Of a stretch of DNA of 5,989 nucleotides, positions 1,689-5,989 are shown one piece after another. The stretch spans positions 1-5,989 of the forward strand of contig JAGAXP010000289.1 of NCBI GenBank assembly GCA_017940955.1, written 5' to 3'. Position 1 is the stretch's first letter. Each line of letters begins with the position of its first letter. Below the pieces are notes generated by a model. That model saw only the letters and a program-made list of their open reading frames with translations, searched no databases and was not told the origin of the DNA. Origin of the DNA: Oribacterium sp. (GTDB lineage Bacteria > Bacillota_A > Clostridia > Lachnospirales > Lachnospiraceae). Made by a program: the position numbers and the translations under genes.

Positions 1689-1950
1689 TTAATTACAAGG
1701 CTCGTAGTCTCTTTCGAAGCCTGTTCTTTCACACCATACCCAGTTACAATTTGGCTTGTACTGGACTTTATATCCCTCGATTGAACCCATATCGTAACGA
1801 ACTGCAGTTACTTCGTGAGTTCCGTTTTTCAATCTGAATGTCTTCAAAATCAATACCCTCCGGTAAAAATGGATTTTCGATACTATACACGTTATGTACG
1901 GTATTGGCAAGTTTTGACTGAAGATGATGAAATGGGTGAAAAATCTGCAT
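1689..1950 (-). pseudogene. Possible frameshifted remnant of an unknown small protein gene
   Basis: Two minus-strand frames appear to continue each other. From ATG 1950-1948 one reads MQIFHPFHHLQSKLANTVHN and on to PFLPEGIDFEDIQ. Near 1833-1850 the plausible sequence moves to the next frame (RLKNGTHEVTAVRYDMGSI), ending in NWVWCERTGF and EPCN before TAA at 1691-1689. Joined, this would give about 85 residues with beta-strand-like composition and three cysteines near the end. There is no ribosome site before the ATG, and an in-frame stop lies two codons upstream, so the 5' part may also be missing. I do not recognise the family. The frameshift is inferred from composition only; the region may simply be non-coding. 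Confidence 0.35.
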
Positions 1951-2190
1951 TTTTTATAAAAAGAGAATAGCAGGCAACAGGCAGAATTATCCAGCTTCCA
2001 CAGCGGATGATGAACATTTTCTTAATTGTTTGCCTGTCATTTGGTCGTAATATAGAAAATAATCCATCAGATTGAGGCGATAATCATCGGTCTTAATGAA
2101 AAAAACCGAAGGGAAGAGATAAAGGCGCTGTGATTTAGAGCCGATTAGCTTCGCATCTGTTGGTTATATATTCAGACAGTAAAACGGCCT
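1951..2190. other. Intergenic stretch without a recognisable gene
   Basis: No supported coding frame, RNA gene or mobile-element end is visible on either strand. There are only weak palindromes: CAGGCAA at 1971-1977 against TTGCCTG at 2030-2036, and TCGGT at 2087-2091 against ACCGA at 2105-2109. Neither is long enough to call. It is best read as worn sequence between the manA terminator and the yhcH promoter. Confidence 0.6.
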
Positions 2191-2220
2191 TTGATAGATG
2201 AGAAGTCTAAAAGGTACTAT
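2191..2220 (+). promoter_or_regulatory. Candidate sigma-A promoter upstream of yhcH
   Basis: TTGATA at 2191-2196 matches five of six -35 consensus bases. TACTAT at 2215-2220 matches four of six -10 bases. The spacing is 18 bases. Transcription would begin near 2227, only about 20 bases before a terminator hairpin at 2246-2280 and about 70 before the yhcH start. Called by eye; modest support. Confidence 0.45.
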
Positions 2221-2245
2221 ACATGTTCTTATTTAAATAGTGATG

Positions 2246-2280
2246 AACGGCGGAAATGGGGTAACCCTTTCCGCTGTTTT
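2246..2280 (+). terminator. Intrinsic terminator or leader attenuator before yhcH
   Basis: Outer stem 2246-2256 with 2268-2278 (11 bp, one G-T pair), a bulged T at 2257, then a GGG/CCC inner stem closed by a GTAA tetraloop of the GNRA type. The T-run is 2277-2280 on the plus strand; the minus strand has none, so it acts rightward. It may end a lost upstream gene. Alternatively, as it sits between a promoter-like site and the yhcH ribosome site, it could be a leader hairpin that limits yhcH expression. Confidence 0.75.
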
Positions 2281-2294
2281 AATTGGAGGTTCAG

Positions 2295-2539
2295 ATGATA
2301 GTTGATCACATTGAAAATATCGAAAGATACAAAGGAATAAATGATACTGTGCTGAAGGCACTGAACTGTATAAAAGAATTTGCAGCAGAACCGTCGAAGG
2401 AAGACGGAATATATGAAGTTGTTCCCGGGGAGATCATACTTCATGTCATAACTAAAGAAACTCATGAAAGAAGTGATGCAGGGTCGGAGATGAGAACAAA
2501 ATGATACGAAAGATCATCGCAAAGGTGAAGATGCATTAA
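2295..2539 (+). pseudogene. yhcH: YhcH/YjgK/YiaL (NanQ-type) family sugar protein with internal deletion
   Basis: This family (DUF386) includes NanQ, linked to sialic-acid anomer conversion, and its genes often sit with nan and nag genes. ATG 2295 has GGAGG at 2285-2289 five bases upstream, so it is preferred to the TTG at 2283. The product opens MIVDHIENIERYKGIN, continues DGIYEVVPGEIILHVI, and reaches TKETHERSDAGSEM, where the family goes on to a conserved His and a YIDI block that binds metal and sugar. Here it stops at TGA 2502-2504 after 69 residues, against about 150 usually. In another frame, 2501-2539 reads MIRKIIAKVKMH and stop, resembling the family's basic C-terminus. I infer an out-of-frame internal deletion of about 70 codons with the native 3' end kept. 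The metal-site region is absent, so no function is expected. Confidence 0.72.
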
Positions 2540-2675: not shown

Positions 2676-2709
2676 ACTTCCCCAAGTGATAATGAAAAGT
2701 CAAAAGGGG
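2676..2709 (+). promoter_or_regulatory. Possible structured 5' leader (hairpin or pseudoknot)
   Basis: ACTT (2676-2679), CCCC (2680-2683) and AAGT (2684-2687) can form a small hairpin whose C loop could pair with GGGG at 2706-2709. Alternatively CCCC and GGGG form a simple longer stem. The fold would end 13 bases before the GAGG ribosome site at 2723-2726. It does not match a riboswitch class that I know. Confidence 0.25.
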
Positions 2710-2732
2710 TTTGGCTTCGATTGAGGTAGTAT

Positions 2733-5700
2733 ATGAGAAAAAGAGTAATTCGTACAAATAATATCAAAAAGGGGATAGCTGCGCTTCTCGCCGCAAGCAT
2801 GGTATTTTCTCATGTTGAGATACCAGCATTTGCAGGCAGTTCAGAAGAAACAGAAGCAGCAGAATCCGGAGCTTCCGTAAAAGGGGGCACCATCAGCCGA
2901 AAAGACATTACTCTTGATCTCCTGAGTGATGACCTGAGAGAGGCTGCTCTTAAAGCCATTCGCGAGAATGAGCTTTTCGATGCACAGGATTATCTGGGTG
3001 CAACATCAGACAGTAAAAAAGCGATAAAAGAATATGAGGCATTTTTCAATGAGAACCCCGGACTCTATGTGGTAGAAGTTCCTGGTTCCGTGTCAGAAAC
3101 CATTGAGAATGAGGCAGAAGCAGAGCTTCGTATTTTCGTTCAGAAGGACGAGAAGATGCGTAAGGCTATGGATATAGCAAGTGCCAGTGAGCTCACAAGA
3201 GATGAAGCTGCATCTTCCAAGGATGTAGAGTTCCGTTACGGTACAGAGAAGGACATCATCCTTTACGAGCCTGCAACAGACGTTGATACATTGATAAACG
3301 GCGGAGAGGATGCTTACTATAAGGAACCTGAACAGGACAATGCTGATAATTCTGATTACGAGCTTACGGGCAAAGAGAAGATCACCTTCATGTTCGTGAA
3401 CAATTCCGATAAGTCAGTTAATTTCACACTTAATGTTGATGACATTACCTATGACAAGCTTACAGTAAGCGGAAAGGACGCTGCTCTTAAAAAGGTTCTT
3501 GCAGAGGCAGGAAAGAAGAAGGCTGACGAAGAAGAAACAGAGAAGGCCGCTGAAACAACAAAGGTCGCTGAGACAACAAAGGCTGTGGAAGCTTCAGAGG
3601 CAGAGACAGTGGCTGCAGATACCGAAGCAGAAACTGTTAAAGAAGAGACTGAAGCTTCGGAAGAGACAGCAGAAAACGCATCTGAGGCAGCTGTTGAAGC
3701 TTCAGAAGAAACAACTGAGGCAGTTGAGACAGCAGCGGAATCAACCGAGGCAGAGACAGAAGAGAGTATAACAGAGTCAAGAGAGACATCAGAGACAGAA
3801 ACTGCTGAAGCTGAAACAGAAGAAACTTTGGAAGTATCGGAAGATACGGAATCAGGTATAAAGGTCGAAGTCACTGAGGCATCTTTAGAAACTACTGCAG
3901 AAGCAGATGAGACCGAAGACGAGACAGAGATTGAGAAAACCATTCCTGAGAAGATAGCAGATGCTTTCCATGGATTGACAGATGGTGTTGCCGGATTATT
4001 CACCGGTGACAAGGAAGAAACTGAAGAAACAGAAGCAGTTGAAGCTGCAGAAGAAACAACAACTGCAGAGGAGACAACTTCAGAAGAGACAGAGACCGAA
4101 ACAGAGAAGGCTGAAGCTGTTGAGACAACAGAAGCTGAGGAAAAGGCAGCCGCTGAAGTTAAGAAGTCAGAGAACAAGAAATCATCAGGTAAGAAAGCAA
4201 CAGCTTCTGAGATAGATGAGACCGAGTATGATGAATTCGCAGAGGAAAAGATAGCTGAAGCAAAAGAAGCTGTAAAGGAAGATAAGGATGCAGCCAAGGA
4301 GAACATCAAGGTGGCAAAGATCGCACAGTACACACTTGATGAACTTGGAAAGATTCACTACGAGACAGAAATCGACGGATTCAAAGTGGATGTATTTGCA
4401 TCAAGAGATGCATTTGATATTTCAGATCCGAAGCTTTCAGTAAAGAAGCTCTGTAAGCCTAAAGAAAAGGACGGCTCAAGTGATGTCCTTTCCGATGAAG
4501 AGATAGCAGAGCTTAAGAAAAACGATATCTATGACCATTCACAGTCACTGGATGTGAGCTTCACGGATTTCTGGGACAAGGAGGTTGAGCCTCAAAAGCC
4601 TGTAAAGGTAAGAATAACTATTAGTGATGAAAAGCTTCTTGGAAAGATCGATGCATCATCTCTTGAAGTTCACCACTTAAAAGAAACAGAAAGCACATTG
4701 AAAACTGAAAAGGTTGCAGCAACTGAGGACGTTAAGCTTCTCGATGAGAATGACGAGAAAATCTCTGATTCTGACCTTGAGACAAATACAGAGGAAGATG
4801 CGGAGACTGATGAGAACACAGTCAACGTAGCCAGTGCGGTTGCGGAGTTCGAAGTTGAGAGCTTCTCAGTATTTGCTATCACCTGGAATGCAGAGGGTAC
4901 TCCTGTAGCTGATATCAGGGTTCACTATGTTGATTCTGATGGTAATCCAATCAAAATTAACGGAAAGGAAGTGAATTCCAGAGGCTTGAATTTGGGAGTT
5001 TATCATCAGGCACGTGATTACTTTATAGATTGGAATGGTTACTACGATTATTACGCTTACGATGTTTATAGTGATATTAAGCTTTCTGATGTTGAGGGAG
5101 GAATCACAGGTTTTACATATAAGGGTGCAAGACTTAATTCCCCTAAAGGACAGGAGATAACTGATGTAAAATCAGTCGAGAATAGTTTCATCGTTGAATA
5201 TTATAACAATGGAAATCTTGTGGAGTCCAATAATTACTATAATTGGAAACAAACTGACAAGGGAGCATACACTTCCGGAAATCATGATAAATTATATTAC
5301 TATGATGGGGATGAATCTACCTTACCTAAGGATGACGATGGATATTATGTAAAAGAGGATAACTCTGCTTTTAAGCTGATAAAGAACGATTCATTGGAAG
5401 GTAAGACCTTATATAGACAGGGTAAAACCACAACTAAATGGGGCTGGAAAGGAATTATACCCTGGCTTTATAGCTACTATCATTACATTCCTTATGATGG
5501 TGAAAGATATGATCAATTAATACTGGATGAAATATATCTTGTCTATGAGAAAACACCTTATTCTGATAGTACACTTCCGGATTTCGGTGAATTAAATGCC
5601 ATAGATAGCGATAAGAATCTTCAGGATAACGATGACGGAACATATACGCTTACACTTAGTGTTACAGGACAAGCTAAGTCGGTAACAGCTGATGTAAATG

Positions 5701-5858
5701 CAGATGTTTTGATCCTTTTTGACTTGTCCAGCAGTATGAATGAAAAGTCTGGTAGTAAAGGATATGCATTTGCAACTAACGGTGAGTACAAATATGGGGT
5801 CTCCAAAGTTGTTTGGGGTCTGACTTCAATGGGGGCTAACATTGGGGTCAATGTTTAG
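2733..5858 (+). CDS. Large secreted Glu/Thr-rich surface protein, truncated at the start of a VWA domain
   Basis: The 1041-codon frame starts at ATG 2733 with GAGG at 2723-2726. Residues 1-34 are a signal peptide: basic MRKRVIRTNNIKKG, a hydrophobic core, and probable cleavage after PAFA. Residues 45-260 form an N-terminal domain of unknown family. Residues 264-403 and 427-476 are Glu/Thr/Ala-rich tracts, probably an extended stalk, separated by a hydrophobic island (404-426, PEKIADAFHGLTDGVAGLF). A Lys/Glu-rich helical stretch (477-533) leads to a beta-rich module at 541-718 (from YETEIDGFKVDVFAS to FSVFAITWN). Residues 720-985 are rich in Tyr and Trp (YDYYAYDVY, WLYSYYHY). At 988-1002, VNADVLILFDLSSSM begins a von Willebrand A domain; D997, S999 and S1001 form the DxSxS metal site. 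Related Lachnospiraceae adhesins usually continue through VWA and Cna-B domains to a wall-sorting signal. Here the frame enters a GGGGTC tandem repeat at residue 1021 and stops, so no wall anchor remains. The product may be released, or the gene is inactive. Confidence 0.85.
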   Translation: MRKRVIRTNNIKKGIAALLAASMVFSHVEIPAFAGSSEETEAAESGASVKGGTISRKDITLDLLSDDLREAALKAIRENELFDAQDYLGATSDSKKAIKEYEAFFNENPGLYVVEVPGSVSETIENEAEAELRIFVQKDEKMRKAMDIASASELTRDEAASSKDVEFRYGTEKDIILYEPATDVDTLINGGEDAYYKEPEQDNADNSDYELTGKEKITFMFVNNSDKSVNFTLNVDDITYDKLTVSGKDAALKKVLAEAGKKKADEEETEKAAETTKVAETTKAVEASEAETVAADTEAETVKEETEASEETAENASEAAVEASEETTEAVETAAESTEAETEESITESRETSETETAEAETEETLEVSEDTESGIKVEVTEASLETTAEADETEDETEIEKTIPEKIADAFHGLTDGVAGLFTGDKEETEETEAVEAAEETTTAEETTSEETETETEKAEAVETTEAEEKAAAEVKKSENKKSSGKKATASEIDETEYDEFAEEKIAEAKEAVKEDKDAAKENIKVAKIAQYTLDELGKIHYETEIDGFKVDVFASRDAFDISDPKLSVKKLCKPKEKDGSSDVLSDEEIAELKKNDIYDHSQSLDVSFTDFWDKEVEPQKPVKVRITISDEKLLGKIDASSLEVHHLKETESTLKTEKVAATEDVKLLDENDEKISDSDLETNTEEDAETDENTVNVASAVAEFEVESFSVFAITWNAEGTPVADIRVHYVDSDGNPIKINGKEVNSRGLNLGVYHQARDYFIDWNGYYDYYAYDVYSDIKLSDVEGGITGFTYKGARLNSPKGQEITDVKSVENSFIVEYYNNGNLVESNNYYNWKQTDKGAYTSGNHDKLYYYDGDESTLPKDDDGYYVKEDNSAFKLIKNDSLEGKTLYRQGKTTTKWGWKGIIPWLYSYYHYIPYDGERYDQLILDEIYLVYEKTPYSDSTLPDFGELNAIDSDKNLQDNDDGTYTLTLSVTGQAKSVTADVNADVLILFDLSSSMNEKSGSKGYAFATNGEYKYGVSKVVWGLTSMGANIGVNV
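3522..3941 (+). repeat. Low-complexity Glu/Thr/Ala tract 1 in the surface protein
   Basis: About 140 codons of imperfect repeats built from ETT, EAE, EAS and AAE units. An in-frame GAAGCTTC word encoding part of an Glu-Ala-Ser motif recurs at 3588, 3651 and 3696. The DNA is purine-rich on the plus strand, and the reverse strand stays open as a Ser/Val/Ala-rich false frame. Length changes by slippage or unequal recombination are likely between strains. Confidence 0.8.
4011..4160 (+). repeat. Low-complexity Glu/Thr/Ala tract 2 in the surface protein
   Basis: A second tract of about 50 codons with the same composition (EETEETEAVEAAEETTTAEE, then TETETEKAEAVETTEAEEK). It is separated from tract 1 by the hydrophobic island. 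The two may descend from one duplicated stalk segment. Confidence 0.75.
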
Positions 5859-5891
5859 GGTCTAACTTTGGGGTCTGAGATTGGGGTCTGA
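5795..5891. repeat. Decayed TGGGGTCTRA tandem repeat, mostly 13-bp period
   Basis: Seven copies of a TGGGGTCTGA-like word begin at 5795, 5814, 5830, 5843, 5856, 5869 and 5882. The last five starts are exactly 13 bases apart; the first two gaps are 19 and 16. Copies at 5814, 5869 and 5882 are identical over ten bases; 5830, 5843 and 5856 carry one to three changes. The array encodes the last 20 or so residues and the stop of the surface protein and runs past it. The reverse-strand form, TCAGACCCCA, recalls repeats I have seen beside REP-associated (Y1-type) transposase genes. That link is from memory and is not shown here, since no transposase is present in the window. Confidence 0.85.
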
Positions 5892-5915
5892 AATACGTTT
5901 TTTAATTAAATTTAT

Positions 5916-5958
5916 AAGAAGAGGAGATCTCTGTTTTTAGAGACCTCCTCTTCTTTTT
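5916..5958 (+). terminator. Long intrinsic terminator
   Basis: Left arm 5916-5932 and right arm 5939-5955 form 16 pairs with one A-C mismatch (5927/5944) and a 6-base loop GTTTTT. Five T's at 5954-5958 overlap the stem end. It closes the surface-protein transcript in its present form. It could be the native terminator of the full-length gene brought close by deletion, or part of the repeat-bearing element. Confidence 0.9.
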
Positions 5959-5989
5959 GGCGTCTTGCGCCCACTACCTCCCGGATCTA

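Follow-up and report, generated by a model that had tools for sequence, protein, structure and literature searches.

A 13-bp tandem array that crosses the 3′ end of a VWA adhesin gene in the window (the whole stretch of 5,989 nucleotides that was analyzed) is, by sequence comparison, firmly identified not as adhesin sequence but as the left end of an ISL3-family insertion sequence by which this gene is interrupted. The event itself is just as firmly identified as an ordinary insertion-sequence insertion. What is new, as far as could be checked, is a conserved, asymmetric ladder of sites in the group of elements to which this one belongs; no description of the ladder array was found in searches of an open-licence literature library. 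Taken as a whole, we consider it very probable that an ISL3-family element inserted into the adhesin gene and that its arrays would serve as docking sites for the transposase.

The initial annotation had placed seven copies of TGGGGTCTRA at 5795-5891, five of them in strict 13-bp step. The array at this position is borne out by Tandem Repeats Finder (13-bp period, score 59; 26-bp period, score 71), by motif enrichment (15 window matches to TGGGGTCTRA with at most two mismatches vs 6.9 expected, seven of them at 5795-5891; none of 200 shuffles reaches 15) and by the lag-13 self-match of the element's first 130 bp (0.50 vs 0.27 in shuffles; z 5.6, 0 of 1000 as high). The five units in strict step stand, but the count of seven does not: T5795 and G5796 are adhesin bases and GGGTCTCC (5797-5804) is the tip of an inverted repeat, so that 5795-5804 is no unit and six true sites are left. 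These sites occupy 5812-5892 on the plus strand as the 13-mers 5812-5824, 5828-5840, 5841-5853, 5854-5866, 5867-5879 and 5880-5892, with cores that start at 5815, 5831, 5844, 5857, 5870 and 5883 (element positions 19, 35, 48, 61, 74 and 87). The first step measures 16 bp and the last five sites keep a strict 13-bp spacing.

The array belongs to the first 193 bp of the insertion sequence (5797-5989, plus strand; left end, transposase side), which are identical at 192 of 193 bases, with a single mismatch, to two complete elements in another genome of the same genus (G009). The ISL3 membership of the window copy rests on these 192 of 193 bases; its transposase gene falls outside the window, with a start expected at about 6030, past the window end. 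The two G009 copies are identical over all 2176 bases and both contain a transposase frame without internal stops. The encoded protein of 475 aa matches DDE_Tnp_ISL3 (PF01610) at 147.5 bits (cut-off 23) and the NCBIfam ISL3 equivalog NF033550 at 196.4 bits (cut-off 180). It has 1859 database relatives at E 0.001, and a PDB sequence search with the transposase profile returned nothing at E 0.01.

ISL3-family elements typically generate an 8-bp target duplication and carry terminal inverted repeats that start with GG. The G009 inverted repeats, GGGTCTCCAAAGTTGTTTGGGGTC and GGATCTCCAAAGTTTAGTGGGGTT, start with GG and match at 19 of 24 positions by eye. In the window, the left inverted repeat GGGTCTCCAAAGTTGTTTGGGGTCTGAC covers 5797-5824 on the plus strand, first array site included, and the reverse complement of the G009 right end reads GGATCTCCAAAGTTTAGTGGGGTT. 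The G009 target duplications are ACTAAAAA and CAAATCTT, 8 bp each, and each of them ends one left flank and starts one right flank; these flanks lie on four contigs (C6, C7, C14 and C43) whose own ends coincide with those of the elements, and their pairing relies on the 8-mers themselves. GAATGTTT is found outside both ends of the G1091 element (ends on two contigs, paired by the 8-mer), and the G1050 element has no target duplication. Of the four elements for which both flanks were read, three (two in G009 and the one in G1091) are bordered by 8-bp duplications. A pattern search for the inverted repeat gave 9 places in 3 of 17 genus genomes, and the backwards pattern gave 0.

The left array of the G009 element lies upstream of the transposase gene, and the right end, behind the genes, also bears an inward array. 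Following the array in the window is a hairpin and then a T-rich stretch (5916-5955, plus strand; folding z -5.67, 0 of 200 shuffles equally stable), and a hairpin follows the left array in five elements examined. This feature is probably a terminator shielding the transposase gene from outside transcription; a simple terminator scan of 5700-5989 listed nothing, despite the strong hairpin found by folding. No Rfam family was detected in the window at the gathering threshold. Plasmids gave no blastn match to window 2700-5989, and viral contigs contained no exact tandem, no adhesin relative and no transposase relative. Behind the transposase gene, the G009 element contains an ORF of 117 aa (L018 138-491, minus strand) with 3 database homologues and no family in Pfam or NCBIfam; in the G1091 and G229 relatives this place is taken by a different, short ORF (about 70 aa).

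We searched for related transposases in 17 genus genomes (5 with a match at E 0.001, most of them distant), 397 family genomes (6 at 1e-20, two of them distant), 392 order genomes (5 at 1e-50), 391 class genomes (1 at 1e-60) and three further genera (3 of 64, 2 of 138 and 1 of 5 genomes; the search of 5 genomes, in the genus of G388, gave nothing beyond G388). With membership defined as at least 57% identity or a clade-profile match at 1e-50, a clade transposase or fragment is present in eleven genomes: G009, G010, G137, G229, G388, G751, G1050, G1076, G1091, G1144 and G1227. Left ends were recovered in six of these (G009, G010, G388, G751, G1050 and G1091) and right-type ends in six (G009, G137, G229, G1050, G1076 and G1091); the flanks fetched for the G1144 and G1227 transposase fragments, both of which came from the searches of further genera, contained no ends.

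A comparison of these ends revealed a conserved site map. Five of six left and five of six right ends have at least five sites, the exceptions being G010 and G137, which have one or two sites only, both beside broken transposases. Left sites start at element positions 19, 35, 48, 61, 74 and 87 in four of six ends (G009, G388, G1050 and G1091; two G1050 sites are one letter off the search word and were placed by fixed-register reading), and the G751 left end has a shifted map (19, 32, 45, 58 and 71). Right sites start at 19, 39, 52, 84, 97, 110 and 123 in four of six ends (G009, G1050, G1091 and G229). The remaining right ends have sites at 19, 39, 52, 65 and 78 (G1076, in a rearranged copy) and at 19 and 39 (G137). 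Several sites at kept positions are found at both ends, in four of six left and four of six right ends. The transposases of map-sharing relatives are 58-65% identical, and between them the site letters drift and the map stays. The lag-13 signal is present in nine distinct ends (z 3.7 to 6.0) and falls below 0 in G010 and G137 (the G1076 end was left out).

Related ends also occur alone. Four solo ends in G001 and G003 have a weak 13-bp signal or none (z 2.7, 1.6, -0.1 and -0.2). Those in G001, a genome without a transposase match, are at L024 (G001:C29) 125, L008 (G001:C74) 1540 and L017 (G001:C97) 1502, and we take them to be relics or non-autonomous copies. In L011 (G003:C37), a right-end remnant that runs from 1524 downwards is directly followed by another ORF, which by eye resembles a helix-turn-helix transposase subunit. 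Elsewhere, the palindrome TAAGAAACCTGTAAGGGGGTCTGACCCC, which resembles the array motif, occurs twice in L002 17166-17310, with the copies 109 bp apart and without the inverted repeat.

The four map-sharing left ends and the four right ends align without gaps across the arrays, whereas the stretch from left array to transposase start has 42-52 gap columns in six pairs. Identity is 0.36-0.68 for spacers and 0.61-0.87 for cores, with cores more alike than spacers in 11 of 12 pairs; in the exceptional pair, the left ends of G388 and G1091, spacers are as alike as cores. Common descent accounts for part of this shared register and limits the independence of the maps. Unit identity between a left array and its own right array is 0.72, 0.69 and 0.75, vs 0.52-0.66 against the right ends of other elements, and the left array is best matched by its own right array in all three complete elements, a pairing that on three elements is weak alone (1 in 6 by permutation). 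Such joint change of left and right would fit recognition of both ends by one protein.

We infer that the transposase most likely docks at the array sites, which would make the ends asymmetric multi-site structures of the kind seen in Mu or Tn7. Each array unit would repeat the inward-lying half of the inverted repeat, the one for binding, and the row of units would be bound co-operatively by the transposase, which has invariant cysteines and a helix-turn-helix. Six left and seven right sites at fixed, unequal spacings could then assemble into an asymmetric synaptic complex in which the element tips reach the DDE active site, and the hairpin behind the left array would halt transcription from outside. 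More broadly, and with less confidence than we place in the insertion and docking sites, we lean towards an ISL3 transposase subgroup with an asymmetric multi-site synaptic complex. In this subgroup, a base-exact ladder of 13-, 16-, 20- and 32-bp steps would place six to seven sites on the left and seven to eight on the right, site letters and transposase would co-evolve, arrays would be alike within an element, and a single transposase gene would suffice with a multiplied inner repeat half.

The position of the left array upstream of the transposase gene, along with the hairpin that follows it in the five elements examined, could also be accounted for if the arrays were operator sites through which the transposase or a host protein controls the transposase promoter, with no role in end pairing. 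We consider this unlikely: the right end, which lies behind the genes, has an equal or longer inward array, and what is repeated in the arrays is the inner portion of the inverted repeat.

It is more doubtful still that the arrays are passive, functionless slippage copies of the inner inverted repeat. Slippage can create tandem units, and the short arrays of G010 and G137 would be in keeping with such an origin, but four of six ends on each side share the placement of the unequal 16-, 20- and 32-bp steps, and the spacers diverge without indels.

For comparison, a 13-bp array is absent from eight other ISL3 loci: seven plasmid loci (25-27% identical, chosen among 20 listed of 2129 records) and L039 (29%), with a top sliding-window lag-13 z of 2.8. 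Among these eight, clear repeats with a GGCTCT tip are seen only in L081 and L039, and the other six may be truncated elements. The L039 inverted repeat, GGCTCTTTGTCAAGTGTTGGGGTATG, carries GGGG at position 19, where the arrays have their first site, which suggests, from this one element, that the arrays may multiply the inner half of an ordinary inverted repeat; L081 has a clear inverted repeat, but no GGGG at position 19.

The interrupted VWA adhesin ORF (2733-5858, plus strand) encodes 1041 aa, comprising 1021 native residues (to 5795) and a 20-residue tail from the junction and the element. The array supplies its stop codon, as initially annotated, with the TAG at 5856-5858 (plus strand) inside the fourth site. 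The closest full-length homologue among those listed, P0002, is 95% identical over the query region. Its BLASTP match stops at residue 1021 of the window protein, and P0002 itself proceeds through the VWA domain past this residue and reaches 1785 aa; P0003 and P0004 likewise extend past the insertion point, which makes three close homologues in all. These named adhesin homologues are of Oribacterium origin. The element match and the end of adhesin homology at the insertion point together support the suggestion that the array is a mobile-element end and that the element inserted in the VWA region. The contrary case, an array found once per genome that every relative has as part of the gene, is not borne out in the relatives compared: the array is multi-copy in G009, and P0002, P0003 and P0004 run on without it.

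The native sequence of the predicted window adhesin stops at residue 1021; the protein continues for 20 further residues and is without the remaining VWA domain and the C-terminal region of its homologues. As part of the overall explanation, and with the same high probability, we place the element between the first and second bases of codon 1022 in a VWA adhesin gene of an Oribacterium, where an 8-bp target duplication, CAAATATG, is predicted. The left copy of this duplication (5789-5796, no strand assigned) is a prediction only, made from the tip position and the 8-bp duplications at sister copies. The truncated adhesin matches no Pfam family at E 0.001. Its Glu/Thr/Ala-rich low-complexity stretch at 3530-4200 varies in length between close homologues.

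Insertion sequences break assemblies, the G009 contigs C6, C7, C14 and C43 all terminate at the boundary of an element, and the window contains other cut genes, so we weighed an assembly artefact in which adhesin and insertion-sequence contigs were falsely joined. The database protein P0001, from a contig of 7075 bases, has the identical cut and the identical 20-residue tail and is counted as a separate sequence because one residue differs from the window protein. The same junction in a separate sequence, and a join that falls at the exact element tip, make such an artefact highly improbable.

The idea in the initial annotation of a non-autonomous REP/Y1 footprint or a 13-bp adhesin phase-variation device retains a negligible probability: 13 is not a multiple of 3, a stop codon lies within the array and Y1 genes are present in the genus, but the inverted repeat or tandem is found in 0 of 20 Y1 loci fetched (of 55 listed), the enzyme is an ISL3 DDE transposase and unit number is equal in the window and the two G009 copies. 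Y1_Tnp is detected in 9 of 17 genus genomes, and G001 and G003 carry ends yet have no Y1 match. We rejected a RAYT/REP element, the repeats adjoining no Y1 transposase among the 20 fetched of the 55 listed Y1 matches. "Non-autonomous" is likewise not sustained, since two complete copies with the same end encode an intact transposase frame; the window has 193 bp only of its own copy. A phase-variable tract was also rejected on the constant unit number: among the few sequences at hand, no indel separates the window from the two G009 copies, and P0001 has the same 20-residue tail.

Other regions of the window contain further gene remnants. A NagB-like ORF remnant (621-1067) is without the first ~104 profile positions, a PMI type I remnant (1075-1530) ends at profile position 113 of 143, and a YhcH-like remnant (2283-2504) covers 64 of 145 positions, just below cut-off. 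Window 1689-2102 (86%) and 2111-2491 (97%) match places about 5 kb apart on G009:C9, and the two genomes therefore differ by a large deletion or insertion there (window 1689-2529).

The usual picture of a short insertion sequence gives each end a single transposase site. If the proposed mechanism is true, the element would be an insertion sequence that attains a Mu- or Tn7-like end architecture from one transposase gene, via a multiplied inner half-repeat. A compact group with a base-exact ladder and changing letters would be a simple model for the origin of multi-site transpososomes and the role of spacing, and the 1859 transposase relatives leave the group open to comparative study. A practical rule also follows: a 13-bp ladder of GGGKCTGA-type units would mark an ISL3 end, and often a broken gene, rather than a REP array or phase tract.

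A comparison with known systems places the element within the ISL3 family (the IS204/IS1001/IS1096/IS1165 group), with which it shares DDE_Tnp_ISL3, an NCBIfam equivalog match over the cut-off, 8-bp duplications in three of four cases and GG-starting repeats. It differs in its long fixed-ladder arrays at both ends, which none of the eight other ISL3 loci has, and passages in two papers describe other ISL3 elements with inverted repeats or gene content only (PMC5398504; PMC4133298). Multi-site ends are known in IS607, Mu, Tn7 and hAT elements (PMC6188088; PMC10201428), and hAT elements such as Hermes also count among the nearest known systems. At IS607-family ends, transposase dimers assemble co-operatively on several subterminal repeats; IS607 uses a serine recombinase, lacks terminal inverted repeats and does not duplicate its target (PMC6188088), whereas the element described here combines a DDE transposase with inverted repeats and 8-bp duplications. 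Closer in layout are the ends of Tn7-like elements and Mu, which also have several sites per end, placed differently on the left and the right; for CAST/Tn7, the spacing of end sites matters (PMC10201428). Those systems rely on several proteins and other transposases, whereas the elements described here have one ISL3 transposase gene, 6-7 sites on the left, 7-8 on the right and 13-bp units.
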